From positions 310,001-374,000 of the forward strand of contig NZ_BBYF01000005.1 of assembly GCF_001894745.1 (NCBI RefSeq): a DNA stretch of 64,000 nucleotides, in the 5' to 3' direction. The notes under the pieces were generated by a model. The model saw only the letters and a list, made by a program, of their open reading frames with translations, was not told the origin of the DNA and searched no databases. Source of the stretch: Paenibacillus sp. NAIST15-1 (GTDB taxonomy: Bacteria > Bacillota > Bacilli > Paenibacillales > Paenibacillaceae). This document shows, one piece after another, positions 3,134 through 60,408 of this stretch (position 1 is the stretch's first letter; every line of letters begins with the position of its first letter). The translations under genes were made by a program, and so were the position numbers.

Positions 3134-3664
3134 TTATTCAAAAAATACACTTGGATATTGCACAACCCCGGATGCGTGATCCAGAGCGTGCTCTTGCAGC
3201 TCCAATGCCATAAATACCTCGTCAGCCACTTCAAATGGCGGTTGTATCCCCCATATAAAGGCCTTCTTGAAGCCAAACTTCGGATAATACTGAGGATGAC
3301 CCAATACGATTACAGAACTGTATTCCAACTGTACAGCTAGTTGCAGTGCTTCACGGATCAGCTTCTTTCCAATTCCGAGAGCTTGGTATTCCGGTAACAC
3401 GGATACGGGAGCCAAGGCAAGTGAATCTACGGTGTGCTGATCTCCACGAATTGTTATTCGAGATAACAGGATGTGACCGACGATATGATCACTGAGAACA
3501 GCGACTAAGGATAACTCCGGAATGAATGCGTCGGATTGCCGGATACGAGATATTAATTCATGTTCCTTTTGATCACTGAATTCCAATGAGTCGAATGCCT
3601 GTTTCACAACGGATTCAGTCACTTGGTAGTCTGCTTGTGTTTCTTTTCGAATGATGATGTTCAT
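3134..3664 (-). CDS. GNAT-family N-acetyltransferase (YhbS-like)
   Basis: A 176-residue single-domain GNAT protein. It starts MNIIIRKETQADYQVTESVVKQAF, carries the central strand GHILLSRITI, and has the acetyl-CoA pyrophosphate-binding segment LPEYQALGIGKKLIREAL (a Q/RxxGxG/A-type motif), followed by VIVLGHPQYYPKFGF, typical of the YhbS subgroup. The ATG at 3664 is chosen because GGAGG lies four nt upstream; an upstream ATG at 3688 would place that ribosome-binding site inside the protein. The gene starts 20 nt after the stop of the bis-aminopropyl-spermidine-synthase-like gene, so the two may be co-transcribed. The substrate is unknown; a polyamine is one possibility suggested only by the neighbour. 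Confidence 0.85.
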   Translation of the reverse strand: MNIIIRKETQADYQVTESVVKQAFDSLEFSDQKEHELISRIRQSDAFIPELSLVAVLSDHIVGHILLSRITIRGDQHTVDSLALAPVSVLPEYQALGIGKKLIREALQLAVQLEYSSVIVLGHPQYYPKFGFKKAFIWGIQPPFEVADEVFMALELQEHALDHASGVVQYPSVFFE

Positions 3665-3684: not shown

Positions 3685-4851
3685 TCAAAATGTTTTCTTA
3701 TTCATGAAATCAAACGTATCGTTGCCGCATGAGTGGCAGCCTCGGTGCTTGAGCTGCTCTATCGTTGCGATATCACATTGGCAGCCAACCGTGATCTTGT
3801 TCCCGCACTGTTTACATTTGTACGTTCGCATCGTCTGCCTCACTTCACCTGTGTATAATGCATCCTCAAATGTCCCTGAGCAATCCGGTATGGTACGCTC
3901 AGTCGTTTTGAGAATGATCATCTGGCTCCGATTCGCGATAATCTCTGCTCCTTCGTATTCATTAAATCGCGGCATTGTTGCACTGGTCGTCACCCCCATT
4001 CTTAGGAACTCACGCTGCATCGTAAACATGTAATCAGGTGACTTATGTGCGAAGGATAAGAAAATCGGCAAGCCTTTTCTCTTCCGCAGTGCGCTAATAC
4101 CTCGAGATACGAAGAGGCTCATCCCCTGCAGCGTATACGGGGGATCTGTGAAGAAACAATCGAACTTCCCTTGCAAGTTTGCCGGCAGTGGTTCTCTTAA
4201 ATCGTGATAGATGCATTGAATCGGCAATCGTTTGTGCTGTGCCACATCATGAATGTAATGTAAAAATCGCTCATCCATGTCAACGACATGCACTGCTGTT
4301 TTGGAATGTCTCCCATTAGGGAATAGAGCTTGAAGCAGCAGTCCAATTGATACACTAACCAAATCGTCGTCGCCCACACACATAATCTGTTTCCCAATTA
4401 AGAATTGCTGCTTCAAACAAAGCACTGCTCTGCGTAAGCTAGTCTCCGGTGTACATTTGGATTGATCGATTCGAGTATCGGCCTGTGGACGATACTTCAT
4501 GATTTCCCGCAAATCGGCTAATACATGGTGCAGATCGGAATGAATCCCATTTTCGAAAGCCATCAGCTCTTGATATAGGCTTCTATGGATTCCGAGATAT
4601 CCCCATTGTTCCTCAACCCATGCTTTTCCTTTCACGGTACAGCGTGCTCCTTTATCCTGAACAATGGCCCCGACCTTGATAAGTTCCCGTTTGACAGCAG
4701 CAGCAGTTGGTATCGGAATAAGAGCTTTCCGGGCCAATTCTTTGGTAGAGATTCCAGGGTTCAAATAACATTCCAACAAGAGCTGCTCGATAACAGTGAT
4801 CCCTTCTTCCAAGCGTACGCCTTCATTTGCGATGTCGATAAAATTGCGCAT
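3685..4851 (-). CDS. Bis-aminopropyl spermidine synthase family protein with N-terminal winged helix and C-terminal zinc ribbon
   Basis: A 388-residue protein with three parts. Residues about 15-75 form a predicted winged helix. Residues about 135-340 carry a Rossmann-type aminopropyl/methyl transferase core with VGDDDLVS (about 159-166) and TDPPYT (about 235-240), the signature of the BpsA family, which adds aminopropyl groups from decarboxylated S-adenosylmethionine to spermidine to make branched polyamines. The last 44 residues hold three closely spaced cysteine pairs (CKQC, CQC, CHSC), a probable zinc ribbon. Branched polyamines are best known from thermophiles, so the real substrate here is uncertain. 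The ATG at 4851 has GAGGAGG 9 nt upstream. Transcription appears to start near 5205, leaving a structured leader of about 350 nt. Confidence 0.8.
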   Translation of the reverse strand: MRNFIDIANEGVRLEEGITVIEQLLLECYLNPGISTKELARKALIPIPTAAAVKRELIKVGAIVQDKGARCTVKGKAWVEEQWGYLGIHRSLYQELMAFENGIHSDLHHVLADLREIMKYRPQADTRIDQSKCTPETSLRRAVLCLKQQFLIGKQIMCVGDDDLVSVSIGLLLQALFPNGRHSKTAVHVVDMDERFLHYIHDVAQHKRLPIQCIYHDLREPLPANLQGKFDCFFTDPPYTLQGMSLFVSRGISALRKRKGLPIFLSFAHKSPDYMFTMQREFLRMGVTTSATMPRFNEYEGAEIIANRSQMIILKTTERTIPDCSGTFEDALYTGEVRQTMRTYKCKQCGNKITVGCQCDIATIEQLKHRGCHSCGNDTFDFMNKKTF

Positions 4852-4854
4852 TGT

Positions 4855-4881
4855 GTCATTCCTCCTCTGTGGCGGAATGAC
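4855..4881 (-). promoter_or_regulatory. Hairpin sequestering the ribosome-binding site
   Basis: On the minus strand GTCATTCC (4881-4874) is perfectly complementary to GGAATGAC (4862-4855). The second arm overlaps the end of the AGGAGG ribosome-binding site of the gene starting at 4851. Closing this 8-bp stem would limit ribosome access. The same AATGA/TCATT words recur in the terminator just upstream, so alternative pairings are possible. Confidence 0.5.
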
Positions 4882-4898
4882 GCTCATTCATGGCACAC

Positions 4899-4935
4899 AA
4901 AAAAGGCGCAGAATGAACAAACGTCATTCTACGCC
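4899..4935 (-). terminator. Intrinsic terminator inside the leader (proximal to the gene)
   Basis: On the minus strand GGCGTAGAATGA pairs with TCATTCTGCGCC (one mismatch, 7-nt loop), followed by six T residues. It sits about 48 nt before the start codon at 4851 and downstream of the promoter at 5212-5241, so read-through is needed to express the gene. This is the arrangement of transcription attenuators. Confidence 0.7.
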
Positions 4936-4973
4936 CTACTTGATTGATACCTAAATAAGCCCCCAAATAAAGC

Positions 4974-5001
4974 AAAAATCCGTGCTTCAAGAAGCACGGA
5001 T
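4974..5001 (-). terminator. Second terminator-like hairpin in the leader
   Basis: An 11-bp perfect stem, ATCCGTGCTTC with GAAGCACGGAT, loop of two, followed on the minus strand by TTTTGC. The short T-run makes it a weaker terminator than the next one. It could instead serve as part of a regulatory structure. Confidence 0.55.
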
Positions 5002-5019
5002 GCGGGTTCAATAAATAGG

Positions 5020-5168
5020 CATACTTATGACCTAAGGCAAGTATGATATCCGTTGTTCTTAACTAATTCCGAGGGTACGCAAATCCACAGCAAATAAATA
5101 TTGCTAAGCAGCAACACTTCTCACTGGCATTACATATACCTCACTATGGAATTTGATTAGTTAAGAAC
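5020..5168 (-). ncRNA. Structured 5' leader RNA of unknown class
   Basis: A 13-bp perfect helix is formed by GTTCTTAACTAAT (5168-5156, minus) and its complement at 5067-5055. It is extended past a 5-nt bulge by UCC/GGA and then, across an internal loop, by GAGGUA (5142-5137) with UACCCUC (5077-5071). Inside lies a hairpin, UUGCU-gcuu-AGCAA. A separate hairpin CATACTT/AAGTATG follows at 5045-5020. The element lies between a good promoter and two terminators. I could not match it to TPP, FMN, SAM, lysine, purine, glycine, M-box, ydaO, ykkC, yybP or T-box consensus features from memory. It may be a new riboswitch-like element or a ribosome-mediated attenuator. Confidence 0.5.
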
Positions 5169-5186
5169 GACCGCCAACATCAACAT
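5157..5186 (-). CDS. Possible leader peptide (MLMLAVVLN or MLAVVLN)
   Basis: A nine-codon ORF in the leader. AGGGAGAG immediately precedes the first ATG, and the second ATG (5180) has a better spacing of 6-8 nt. Its last codons GTT CTT AAC TAA are the 5' strand of the 13-bp stem that organises the leader, so a ribosome translating it would prevent that stem from forming. This is the layout of leader peptides that control attenuation. Translation is not shown. Confidence 0.35.
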   Translation of the reverse strand: MLMLAVVLN

Positions 5187-5211
5187 CTCTCCCTAGAAAA
5201 TTTATGCATTT

Positions 5212-5241
5212 ATCGTAACACCTTGTAAATATACATGTCAA
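5212..5241 (-). promoter_or_regulatory. Promoter for the bis-aminopropyl-spermidine-synthase-like gene
   Basis: On the minus strand: TTGACA (5241-5236), 18-nt spacer, TACGAT (5217-5212). It lies only 21 nt beyond the selO stop codon and implies a start near 5205. The downstream gene therefore has its own transcript with a leader of about 350 nt rather than depending on selO. Confidence 0.6.
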
Positions 5242-8680: not shown

Positions 8681-11600
8681 TTAAACTTTCCTGCCTGCCC
8701 ACACATCCTTCACATATCTCCCATCGACCCCGAGCTGCTCCAACCATCTGTTTGCTTTCGTCTCACTAACTGCATGAGCCTCTTGATACATTTGCTTAAG
8801 TGTTGCCTCCACATCTGGTGACATAGCGTTTCCGTCACCGCACACATAGAACTGTCCCCCATGATCAAGGAGACCGATCACTTCGTGCTGACGCTGCTTG
8901 ATGAGATGCTGGACATAAGTTTTTGGTTGACCTTCGTTTCGAGAAAATGCGGTGTGTACCGTAACAATCCCCTCTTGTTGATATTGCTCCAGCTCTTCTT
9001 CATAGATATGATCCGTCGCATCTCGACAACCGAAATAAAGATACGCGCTGCCGAGCGGAATCCCTTGCTCTTTCATAGCCTGCCGGGCTTGAAGAAATCC
9101 ACGGAATGGGGCAATCCCTACCCCGGGGCCTACCATAATAATAGGTGTGCTTGGATCCTCTGGCAGCCGGAAATTGGACTGCGGTGGCTGAATGAACATC
9201 ATAATAGATTCGCCTGGTTGTCTGTCGGCAAGATAGTTAGAAGCAACTCCTCGATATTCATGGCGCCCATCCCAAGCTGGACTCTGTACGACCCCTACTG
9301 TGAGACTAATCTGATTTGGCTGTACACGAGGAGAGCTTGATATCGAATAGTATCGTATTTTTAGTGGCGGGAGCAGCTCTAAAAAGCGCTCGAATGTCAT
9401 CGAGCAAGCTTCATATTTCTCAAGTAAATCTAACATTGATATTCGCTTCTCAAGGATGTTCCGCCTATAGGCTTCTGCCCCAAGCAGTGCTTCTAATTCG
9501 ATTCGATGCGGGGGACATACCGTCAAGGCGGCAAGCTCGCGAATTTGTGCTCGACTGGCAGGCTCCTGAAGTTCGACGCTCCGGCTTAGAAGATCATGTA
9601 TCAACACAGGTCGATGTAACGGCAAATGGGAAGAACGGTTCCCTGTTGTTCGCAACACCACGTGATCGCTTCCATTTAAGTCAAATCTGCTTATTACCCG
9701 TTCAACTAGATTATCCGAATTGATAGGGAACACACCTAAATGATCCCCCTCAAGATAAGACACTCCTTCAGGCAGTTCAATCTCGATATGGCGTGTACTA
9801 CGCCCGTTTCCCCCTCTTTGCAGCTCGTGATTGTCTATGACCGTTGCACAATGGACCTGGTATGATTCGGCAAACGGTGATTCAACCGATATGTTTACAA
9901 CCTCTACAGTTAACGAAGAAGCTGTCGATTTCTCTGTTCCTTCAATTCCATCAAATTCTAAATCCAAAGAACGCATAACTGCTGGCCACAGCTTAGCGCG
10001 CCACTCCTCCACTTCGGTTTCGAAGTCACCGCTGGCATCGCCATGGCCGACAGGCAGCAAACGATTCGCTCCTTTAGCTGCGAGCTGTTCGTCAATGGAT
10101 ATGGGAATGCTCTGATAGGTACTAGGCCAGTTATGATCGCCGCAACCAAAGACGCAATAGCGAACTCCTGTCAACGCTTCTGGCTCCACTTCCTTCAGCC
10201 ACTTCATGAAGCGTCGTGCATTGCTCGGCGGTTGACCGTTATATGATGCTGTTACGATATAGGTGATGCCTTCCTTAGGAAGACCATCTGGATAATCGTT
10301 AAGGGGTGCGACTTTACTTAGGAAGCCTAGTTCACGTCCTTTCTCTGCCAGTTCGCGGGCAATGCCCTCTGCTGTGCCAAGATTGGAGCCGTATAATACG
10401 AGGAGCGGCGTATGGTGAAGGGATCGTTGTTGAGGCTCTCGGCTTAAGGCTGCTCCTTCATTAGAGGGGTCACGATTTTCAATGAGAATGGCTGCAGCTC
10501 CGATCTTAGTGCGTCGCGGACGGACTTGCATGGTAAACCCTTCGGGCTTGATGGTCAGCGACTCCATAAGCTTCAATTGATAATTGGTGTGATCGATGAG
10601 TTCGAAATGTTTCAAGATTAAACCAAGCATTAATGTCGCCTCTTGCAGCGCAAATTGCTGACCGATACAAGCGCGTTGACCGATTCCGAAAGGCTTATAA
10701 GCATCATGAGGGATTTGGCTTGGATCCTCGAATCGCTCTGGACGAAATTCGTTCGCATCAGATCCCCATACTGCAGCATCTCGGTGCAATTGAGGAAGCA
10801 GTAGGAGCAGGCGATCTCCCTTCTTCATCTCATATCGATCCGCCAGCAGCGTATCTTTCTTCACATGCAAGTTGAACGCGGGTGCTGTCGGCCATAATCT
10901 CAGCGATTCATCGAGAATCATGCGAATGTATTTCAAATCCTTGATCTGTGTGTAGGTGGGAACGGGATCTTTCAATACACGATCTACTTCCTCATAGCCT
11001 TTTTGCAGCTTGTCGCGATTGTTCAGCAGAAAATACAGGGCGAAGGACAATAATCCGCTTGTTGTCTCATGTCCGGCTACTAAGAACGTAATAATTTGAT
11101 ACCGAATGTTGGCGTCGTCCAGAGCTTCACCTGTGTCTGGATCCTTGCCTTGCAGCATGTAAGCTAACAAGTCATCTGCCTGTTCGTGTCCGTGCGCTTT
11201 GCGTTCAGCGATCATTTTATCGACTAAGGAGAACATGACATCAATGTCCTGCTGGAATTGCCGCCGGGTTTTGATCATAAGCTTATCCTGAATGCCAAGC
11301 CGCTGCGCTTGATTCAAGGATTCATCCAATGCCCGAACCATACTTGTTACAAATGGGTGGGGTTGATCACGGTAGAAGCTGTTAAAGCGGTAATTGAAGC
11401 CGCATAGCCCGATCGTATCCATCGCCAGTCTTGTCATATCCTCCGGCACTTCAACATAGTCATCAGGATTTAGCCGCGACCACTTCTGGATTAACTGCAT
11501 GGCGAGATCCAGCATCTTGTCAAAATAGCCCCGCATTGCTGTGCGGCTGAAGCTCGGGAGCAAAATATTATGGGCCTTCTTCCAGTTCGGCTCCTCCGTC

Positions 11601-11872
11601 TCAGAAGTAAATAATCCATCCCCTGCAAAGGATCGCACATTGTTTAATACGGTTTTATCTACGATTTTGCCGAAGCGATCAGTGTCGCTAAATTCCTTGG
11701 CCAACTCGTACCCAGAGACGACATGAAGCGTTCCAAACGGCAGCTTCATGCGGTAGATTTCACCGTATTCATTAGCAAGATTCATGAAAGATAAGATGGG
11801 TGTATTCGGATTCAGTTGAGGAATGTTGCCGAGAGGGCCGTAGGTTTTGGGTTGTGGAATCGTAATAGACAT
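8681..11872 (-). CDS. Bifunctional cytochrome P450/NADPH-P450 reductase (CYP102, P450 BM3-type)
   Basis: A 1063-residue self-sufficient fatty-acid hydroxylase. The haem domain (1-470) carries [10 protein letters not shown] (Phe88 equivalent to BM3 Phe87), the I-helix AGHETT (about 266-271), ESLRLWP and [14 protein letters not shown] with the haem thiolate at Cys402. A linker leads to an FMN-binding flavodoxin domain starting [15 protein letters not shown], then an FAD/NADPH ferredoxin-reductase domain ([11 protein letters not shown] for [17 protein letters not shown] and YFGCRD for NADPH). It hydroxylates medium- and long-chain fatty acids near the omega end with electrons from NADPH. AGAGGAGG precedes the ATG. 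It lies downstream of a Bm3R1-like repressor gene, with an operator at 11989-12006 between them, matching the fatR/bm3R1-cyp102 arrangement of bacilli. Confidence 0.95.
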
Positions 11873-58150: not shown

Positions 58151-58436
58151 TAAAAAAACCTCACCTCCAAGACGTTAAGTCTTGGGGACGAAGTTATCGT
58201 GGTACCACCCCGGGTTCATTAATATGTCGCCATATTAATCTCATCAAGTACGGCATAAGAAGCATGCTTATACTCTAGCTCTGTAACGGGAGCTCCCGTC
58301 ATGCCATCCCACGGTTGAACGGATCCGGCATGCTGCTCAGAGGCTTGGTTCGGGAAATGGCTCATTGCTCCTTCTCAGCTGCAGGAGCTCTCTGTATATG
58401 GGCATATTTCCTTACTCTTCTCATCATCGCGTTTCT
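58151..58436 (-). promoter_or_regulatory. T-box leader of glnS (CAA specifier)
   Basis: The minus strand contains the T-box GGGTGGTACCACG (58211-58199), a competing terminator CCAAGAC/GTCTTGG (58185-58167) with seven T residues, and a long stem I beginning near 58430. In stem I, AGTA is followed on the other strand by GAAC and then CAA (58347-58345), a glutamine codon at the expected specifier place. Uncharged tRNA-Gln would bind and allow read-through into glnS. Confidence 0.88.
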
Positions 58437-60302: not shown

Positions 60303-60326
60303 AATACATCTATATTAAGTTGAATA

Positions 60327-60408
60327 GGCGATGGAGTTCGCCATAACCGCCGTCTAGGCTAATGACTCCTACCAGAGAATAACTTCCCTGGTAGGAGTCT
60401 GTTTTTTT
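60327..60408 (+). promoter_or_regulatory. Fluoride riboswitch (crcB motif) with terminator
   Basis: GGCGATGGAGTTCGCC followed by ATAACCGCC and GGCTAATGACTCCTAC is the conserved core of the crcB fluoride riboswitch (pseudoknotted aptamer). The last part, GACTCCTACCAG (60364-60375), also pairs perfectly with CTGGTAGGAGTC (60388-60399) to form a terminator with seven T residues. Fluoride binding should stabilise the aptamer and allow read-through into the CLC-F gene that starts 38 nt later. Confidence 0.92.

Follow-up and report, generated by a model that had tools for sequence, protein, structure and literature searches.

A conserved leader RNA with a seven-codon upstream open reading frame, a probable ribosome-mediated attenuator, precedes bpsA-family and short mutS2 genes

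In the leader of Bacillus subtilis vmlR, a three-codon upstream open reading frame (uORF) is described as lying within an anti-antiterminator stem and as being combined with a TTATTT NusG pause motif and an intrinsic terminator (PMC9226507). The gene is reported to be induced by drugs that stall initiation, with lincomycin and retapamulin stalling initiating ribosomes, and both the uORF and the NusG motif were tested there by mutation (PMC9226507). Consensus uORF peptides have been given for several such leaders, namely MIN for VmlR, MK[L/Q] for VmlR2, MR[I/M] for CplR and MAGN for LsaA (PMC10201436). A protein that acts on stalled ribosomes is B. subtilis MutS2, which splits them; its SMR domain is described as promoting collision binding, and its ATPase as mattering most for erythromycin survival (PMC10897456).

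We analysed a window of 64,000 nt from Paenibacillus sp. NAIST15-1 (contig NZ_BBYF01000005.1, positions 310,001 to 374,000), in which the minus-strand interval between the end of selO (5262) and the start of a BpsA-family gene (4851) holds a leader RNA. This leader is a real, conserved RNA element. It represents a new family within a known type of RNA switch and has no counterpart in Rfam. It is very probably a VmlR-like, ribosome-mediated transcription attenuator controlled by a seven-codon uORF and answering ribosome-targeting antibiotics, the drugs being the proposed inducing signal. A first-pass annotation made from the sequence alone had described a promoter, a perfect 13-bp stem with two inner helices, a separate hairpin and two terminator-like hairpins in this interval, all of which were located at the positions given below. 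The uORF and the TTATTT motif were absent from that description. Coordinates of the features refer to the window.

5236..5241, minus strand: -35 element TTGACA (sequence; a promoter-like pair is also present in related leaders)
5212..5217, minus strand: -10 element TACGAT, separated by an 18-nt spacer (sequence)
5187..5194, minus strand: Shine-Dalgarno (SD) sequence of the uORF, AGGGAGAG (sequence and comparison of bpsA leaders)
5157..5180, minus strand: uORF of seven codons, MLAVVLN-stop (equivalent uORF in 26/26 bpsA leaders)
5156..5168, minus strand: P1 5' arm, GTTCTTAACTAAT, overlapping uORF codons 5-7 and the stop codon (folding; compensatory changes in divergent copies)
5097..5117, minus strand: apical hairpin within the P1 loop, a possible pause hairpin (folding)
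5092..5097, minus strand: TTATTT, fitting the NusG pause motif TTNTTT (putative role borrowed from vmlR as described in PMC9226507)
5055..5067, minus strand: P1 3' arm, ATTAGTTAAGAAC (folding; compensatory changes in divergent copies)
5048..5053, minus strand: candidate antiterminator strand ACGGAT, immediately 3' of P1 (swap test and nascent-transcript folding)
5020..5045, minus strand: separate hairpin, CATACTTG...AAGTATG, within the candidate antiterminator (folding)
5016..5022, minus strand: candidate P3 5' strand ATGCCTA, with its partner at 4953-4947, enclosing T1 (weak swap-test signal)
4974..5001, minus strand: terminator T1, hairpin 5001-4978 and T-run to 4974 (folding, homologues)
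4947..4953, minus strand: candidate P3 3' strand TAGGTAT (sequence)
4899..4937, minus strand: terminator T2, hairpin 4937-4904 and T-run to 4899 (folding, homologues)
4853..4889, minus strand: hairpin over the bpsA ribosome-binding site, about 4889-4853, -15.5 kcal/mol (folding; not conserved)
3685..4851, minus strand: bpsA-family gene, 388 aa, PF01861, motifs GDDD, DxDER and DPPYT (profile match, motifs)

The two P1 arms (5168-5156 and 5067-5055) pair perfectly over 13 bp in the window, and the 5' arm of T1, ATCCGT (5001-4996), is complementary to ACGGAT (5053-5048), which provides an alternative pairing. The 376-nt leader folds at -136.8 kcal/mol compared with -95.9 (sd 4.8) for its dinucleotide shuffles (z -8.5), none of 100 shuffles being as good. 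P1, the inner helix P2, T1 and T2 were all found again in homologues. A stem over the ribosome-binding site had also been proposed; it is present in the window but not conserved, the mean unpaired probability of the SD being 0.47 over 26 loci and 0.34 in the window. A promoter-like pair was detected upstream of 24 of the 26 bpsA leaders with a permissive, uncontrolled pattern.

The candidate helix P3 (5022-5016 with 4953-4947) surrounds T1 in type-A leaders; its formation would require read-through RNA, so that T2 or the stability of the mRNA may be its target. By eye, many but not all leaders have at the apex of T2 a GUUC (window 4918-4915) complementary to the GAAC that ends the P1 3' arm, a possible second antiterminator contact. 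In some leaders, including L009 and L012, we also saw by eye a second small ORF of about 23 codons that lies between T2 and bpsA and reaches the bpsA start, possibly providing translational coupling.

The product of the downstream gene matches PF01861 with 157 bits (cut-off 27) and has PDB matches 2qm3 and 5xnc; it is a BpsA-family protein for which branched-polyamine synthesis from decarboxylated AdoMet and spermidine is predicted. AdoMet decarboxylase is encoded in 19/19 genomes tested (bpsA was seen in 18 of them, and its presence in G710 was deduced from a second leader), so the substrate for aminopropyl transfer is available. A term search of a review on branched polyamines did not find the word Paenibacillus (PMC12979288). 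Directly after bpsA, the window encodes a GNAT acetyltransferase (3134-3664, minus strand), and GNAT-like sequence was seen by eye behind bpsA in several related loci.

Among 295 genomes of the family searched with the protein, 32 encode bpsA. Cohnella sp. REN36 is one of these, so that the family belongs to the Bacillota; its loci L010 and L031 lie on the same contig, and L031 was dropped. Of the 42 match rows of this search, 30 had their locus read and the 12 rows lacking a locus were left out; the leader is present at 26 of these 30 loci, its presence having first been scored by the exact 9-mer GTTCTTAAC. The four loci lacking it (L027-L030) are paralogues with carrier-domain sequence before the gene (4/4), and the leader model gave no match at four cluster-linked copies. 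In the two read further (L160, L161) this sequence ends ORFs that exceed 2100 codons and by eye appear polyketide/NRPS-like. An FkbH-like ORF was also seen by eye behind the bpsA paralogue in both. Judging from this gene neighbourhood, the leaderless, cluster-linked BpsA may serve there in tailoring or in self-protection.

The uORF of the window (5180-5157) starts 8 nt downstream of the AGGGAG Shine-Dalgarno sequence, and the final codons GTT CTT AAC together with the stop TAA sit within the P1 5' arm; an in-frame ATG at 5186, just 2 nt from the SD core, would make a nine-codon uORF. All 26 bpsA leaders have a uORF of 6-7 codons ending inside the P1 5' arm, preceded in every case by an SD-like match (at least 4/6 to AGGAGG). 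The peptide ends in VLN in 22 of the 26, and in the other four (L019, L020, L021 and L023) the uORF is shifted by one base and reads MSVFCS or MSVLCS. Residues 2-4 vary freely across copies. At the nucleotide level, GTTCTTAAC and GTTAAGAAC do not vary among the 26 bpsA leaders, even at third codon positions, an indication that the RNA itself is under constraint. For the 5' arm this uniformity follows in part from the scoring, because GTTCTTAAC was the search criterion; the 3' arm is unaffected, GTTAAGAAC not having been a criterion.

Comparison of more divergent leaders provided evidence for the pairing itself. In the alignment of 38 rows, divergent copies included, 95.1% of P1 cells pair, and double changes occur at three of 12 pairs (5 cells); none of 500 shuffles reached either value, and controls with slid arms gave 20-48% pairing and up to two double-change pairs. 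The changes comprise C-G to A-U in L102 and L105, which are close relatives with the uORF MIKGVLK, C-G to U-A in L108 and A-U to U-A in L101, as well as a double change in L104 that hinges on a gap in the alignment. Since the divergent uORFs MIKGVLK and MKQVFLTK retain P1 through compensatory changes, the constraint on the uORF is base pairing. In swap tests, whose p-values treat overlapping comparisons as independent, P2 pairs with itself at -18.3 kcal/mol versus -10.5 for swapped arms (31 group representatives, p=6.6e-17), the antiterminator strand, a segment picked after viewing the alignments, pairs with the T1 5' arm at -7.45 within versus -5.52 between leaders (n=27, p=1.4e-5), and P3 gives a weak signal (p=0.0074). 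An outward extension of P1 that would hide the antiterminator strand covaries weakly (p=0.02). The first-pass annotation had proposed a covariation check on homologous leaders, and its proposal of an attenuator ahead of a BpsA-family gene agrees with the PF01861 match, the leader at 26/30 loci and the covariation of P1 and P2.

In 70 of 71 leaders the automatic caller reported a hairpin followed by a T-run, which was not always the true T1; in a few (e.g., L033, L048, L051 and L052) it probably took T2 for T1. Two leaders in which T1 was called too far off (L024, L040) were excluded from the T1 and antiterminator foldings and swap tests, and two others with a wrong hairpin called (L034, L086) also from the T1 swap test and the nascent-transcript folding. 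The TTNTTT motif occurs within the P1 loop in 57/71 leaders and 22/31 representatives, compared with 26% of mononucleotide-shuffled loops; it is absent from 14 of the 71 leaders and displaced from its usual place in some others.

Rfam searches over the whole window and in a permissive scan of the leader gave no relevant match for it, in line with the earlier statement that no common class could be recognized. The permissive scan returned trpB, mir-1889 and EF3314_EF3315, all far below cut-offs, and a search of 12 related loci returned two tRNAs only. Elsewhere in the window there are a T-box leader (58181-58436, minus strand, RF00230, 106.6 bits) and a Fluoride riboswitch (60318-60378, plus strand, RF01734, 62.2 bits). 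The window also contains a 1063-aa ORF (8681-11872, minus strand) that resembles a cytochrome P450 fused to its own reductase, which we take to be a CYP102/BM3-like protein. Among the matches listed in a search of the open-access literature (titles and starts of abstracts, with subscription papers and preprints outside its scope), neither such a leader nor a drug-inducible MutS2 appeared, and none described a bpsA-family gene or a second, SMR-less MutS2 as drug-inducible.

The competing explanation that fares best is a peptide-specific arrest, in which nascent M-x-x-x-V-L-N would itself arrest translation in the presence of one drug class, as ErmCL does with macrolides, or at the stop codon in response to polyamines. 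It could account for the recurrence of the three-codon spacing and VLN-stop in 87 distinct leaders (82 with TAA and 5 with TAG), a form that the search pattern itself demands, and a ribosome poised at the stop codon (A site) would be expected to mask almost all of the P1 5' arm. As the main mechanism it is nevertheless unlikely: residues 2-4 are free to vary, four leaders use another frame (MSVFCS or MSVLCS), the copies encoding MIKGVLK and MKQVFLTK conserve P1 rather than the peptide, and in vmlR lincomycin and retapamulin are described as stalling ribosomes already at initiation (PMC9226507).

The genes found behind the leader also favour the preferred reading, attenuation by a ribosome on the uORF. 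A pattern search detected the leader in 11 of 392 genomes of the order and in 62 of 398 genomes of the class, where a reversed control pattern occurred in 6 of 398. Copies are also present in genomes with no bpsA match in the protein search, e.g., in G190 ahead of a MutS2 paralogue. Among loci L001-L159 the exact motif marks 119 distinct sites, of which 29 are antisense, each being a leader on the other strand (29/29), and 90 are sense. The genes behind the 90 sense sites encode short MutS2 (46), BpsA (35), an ABC exporter (8) and ABC-F (1), counts that reflect the fetched loci, some of them chosen from earlier hits, and are no census. After removal of the 25 sites found via bpsA, the remaining 65 are distributed over the same four families (46 short MutS2, 10 BpsA, 8 ABC exporter and 1 ABC-F; 65/65). 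Outside the exact motif, divergent copies precede another ABC-F gene, a pair encoding an APH-like kinase and ABC-F, and a second APH-like kinase. Three ribosomal-protection-like ABC-F proteins behind leader copies match NF000355 with 463, 504 and 456 bits (cut-off 380); the APH-family kinase located behind the leader and in front of one ABC-F gene matches PF01636 with 127 bits, and the second APH-like kinase, behind a divergent leader elsewhere, matches more weakly (24.7 bits, cut-off 23.2). At both exporter loci read (L156, L159), the ABC exporter consists of two genes in a row.

Covariance models extended this distribution. R1, built from 38 leaders, matched in 14 of 299 genomes of the phylum, and 13 of its 15 matches lie ahead of short MutS2, BpsA, ABC-F or ABC-exporter genes. 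The other two, L107 inside a mutS2-like coding sequence and L109 before a glycosyltransferase-like ORF, are chance or unclear matches, a few of which are expected among 299 genomes because E-values are per genome. L089, which lies ahead of sbcD and lacks an SD, was likewise set aside as chance or unclear. The second model, R2, matched in 36 of 220 genomes of the class, as well as in 9 of 24, 2 of 8 and 1 of 3 genomes in the orders of G924, G1114 and G915, respectively. Sites of R2 and of the class-wide pattern search that are listed with no locus were read only where fetched.

The MutS2 paralogue linked to the leader has about 640-700 aa and covers profile positions 1 to about 510-575. TIGR01069 scores above its cut-off in 6/6 short proteins, which therefore retain the MutS2 core with the ATPase, and the Pfam domains Smr and MSSS gave no match in 7/7 short proteins scanned, both being found in 2/2 full-length controls. 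A few copies have weak matches around profile positions 603-721, so a KOW-like remnant is possible in some of them. In a sample of 18 genomes picked for carrying the leader, full-length MutS2 is encoded in 18/18 and the short one in 17/18; the copy in G065 is broken by a stop, and those at L080 and L087 are interrupted. A search through the protein family showed that the genome of the window itself encodes a short MutS2 paralogue preceded by a second leader copy (contig C1 215998-216201, minus strand; L094 and L110), the uORF of which ends in TAG instead of TAA. Conversely, in a plasmid collection we took the best three of nine records covering at least 80% of the short MutS2, and these loci, found by protein alone, carry the leader in 3/3 cases (Cytobacillus spongiae, E-value 3e-14; Paenibacillus sp. 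IHB B 3084, 7e-16; P. cellulosilyticus, 9e-10). At two full-length mutS2 loci the best R2 match had an E-value of 0.49.

This range of genes bears on the first-pass suggestion of a polyamine or S-adenosylmethionine derivative as the signal. A metabolite riboswitch, with P1 and its loop as an aptamer for a polyamine, AdoMet, its decarboxylated form or a metal that would set T1 and T2, would fit the long-range P1 with terminators behind it and the conserved positions among close relatives, and the occurrence of AdoMet decarboxylase in 19/19 genomes means that the metabolites are available. It is very unlikely all the same and was dropped, because the same leader precedes the unrelated MutS2 paralogues, ABC-F proteins, APH-like kinases and ABC exporter and carries a uORF in the P1 5' arm in the copies read; moreover, a 38-leader alignment has no invariant column in the P1 loop interior, between window-leader positions 55 and 135, unlike an aptamer core. 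Translation stress, named by the same annotation as a third option, agrees with the signal to which the gene associations and the uORF point. A reading in which T1 and T2 serve only to terminate the selO unit, which ends just upstream, and the remainder is an unregulated 5' UTR is scarcely credible against the promoter-like pair between selO and the leader and at other bpsA loci, the recurrence of the leader ahead of other gene families and the covariation of P1 and P2.

On the ribosome-mediated attenuator reading, the leader would operate as follows. With working ribosomes the uORF would be translated fast and vacated; the uORF start region would pair with the nucleotides immediately 3' of P1, lengthening this stem outward, and P1 in this form would act as an anti-antiterminator, so that T1 and then T2 would end transcription. 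A ribosome held on the uORF by an antibiotic, at the start or later, would block the outward extension; the freed ACGGAU would then pair with the T1 5' arm before the T1 3' arm exists, and the polymerase would read into bpsA. The NusG-type motif in the P1 loop is presumed to hold the polymerase ahead of the P1 3' arm, which would allow a ribosome to load.

Folding supports this scheme in kinetic form only. In transcripts cut before the T1 3' arm, the predicted pairing of the antiterminator with the T1 5' arm is 0.03 in free RNA, where the strand is hidden, compared with 0.47 for a start-stalled and 0.44 for a late-stalled ribosome, modelled as blocks up to +16 (initiation complex) and up to +34 (stop codon in the A site). 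The gain exceeds 0.2 in 23/27 and 22/27 leaders, respectively. With T1 complete, most leaders, that of the window among them, retain this hairpin in equilibrium folding, and with a late-stalled ribosome the gain exceeds 0.2 in only 4/29. An equilibrium antiterminator was thus not supported, and the kinetic model was retained: since complete T1 wins at equilibrium, timing would have to decide the outcome of the switch. Timing of this kind is usual for attenuators.

A uORF attenuator is often a sign that the gene behind it helps the cell to withstand drugs that target the ribosome. As this leader also stands ahead of resistance and ribosome-rescue genes, bpsA and the gene for the short MutS2 can be regarded, by association, as candidates for a role in antibiotic tolerance. 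The SMR-less copy is of interest in this respect, given that in full-length MutS2 the SMR domain aids collision binding while the ATPase matters most for survival of erythromycin. We tentatively propose a wider reading, in which one attenuator family marks a ribosome-drug tolerance regulon across Bacillota; the SMR-less MutS2 would split drug-stalled ribosomes without a collision, and BpsA of mesophiles would protect ribosomes under drug, via branched polyamines or RNA aminopropylation. If so, branched polyamines would form an inducible antibiotic-tolerance system, beyond heat adaptation. The associations open testable hypotheses on ribosome rescue without collisions and on the function of BpsA in non-thermophilic bacteria.

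Among described systems, vmlR (PMC9226507) shares with this leader a very short uORF with its SD in an anti-antiterminator stem, TTATTT, an intrinsic terminator and a gene against ribosome drugs. As judged from its description only, it differs in having the three-codon uORF MIN and one terminator, compared with seven codons and two terminators here, and in the NusG pause hairpin that follows SL-1, whereas the pause motif of the present leader lies inside the P1 loop; the long P1 and the downstream genes are also different. None of the uORF consensus types given for VmlR, VmlR2, CplR and LsaA resembles M-x-x-x-V-L-N (PMC10201436). The short MutS2 is like B. subtilis MutS2 (PMC10897456) by TIGR01069, i.e., by core and ATPase, and differs from full-length MutS2 in the Smr and MSSS hits, seen in the two full-length proteins and lacking in 7/7 short ones. 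The B. subtilis bmrB-bmrCD leader (PMC4191407) is described as containing a 53-aa ORF with the terminator inside it, unlike the leader here, yet there too antitermination depends on the ribosome and acts ahead of an ABC exporter of two genes, like the one behind the leader copies of g274. Finally, in Listeria hflXr (rli80; PMC6310831) the peptide has 14 aa with an RLR motif and the splitting factor is the GTPase HflX instead of the ATPase MutS2, but there as well the gene behind the uORF attenuator is a second, inducible version of a ribosome splitter, paralleling the second MutS2 found here.
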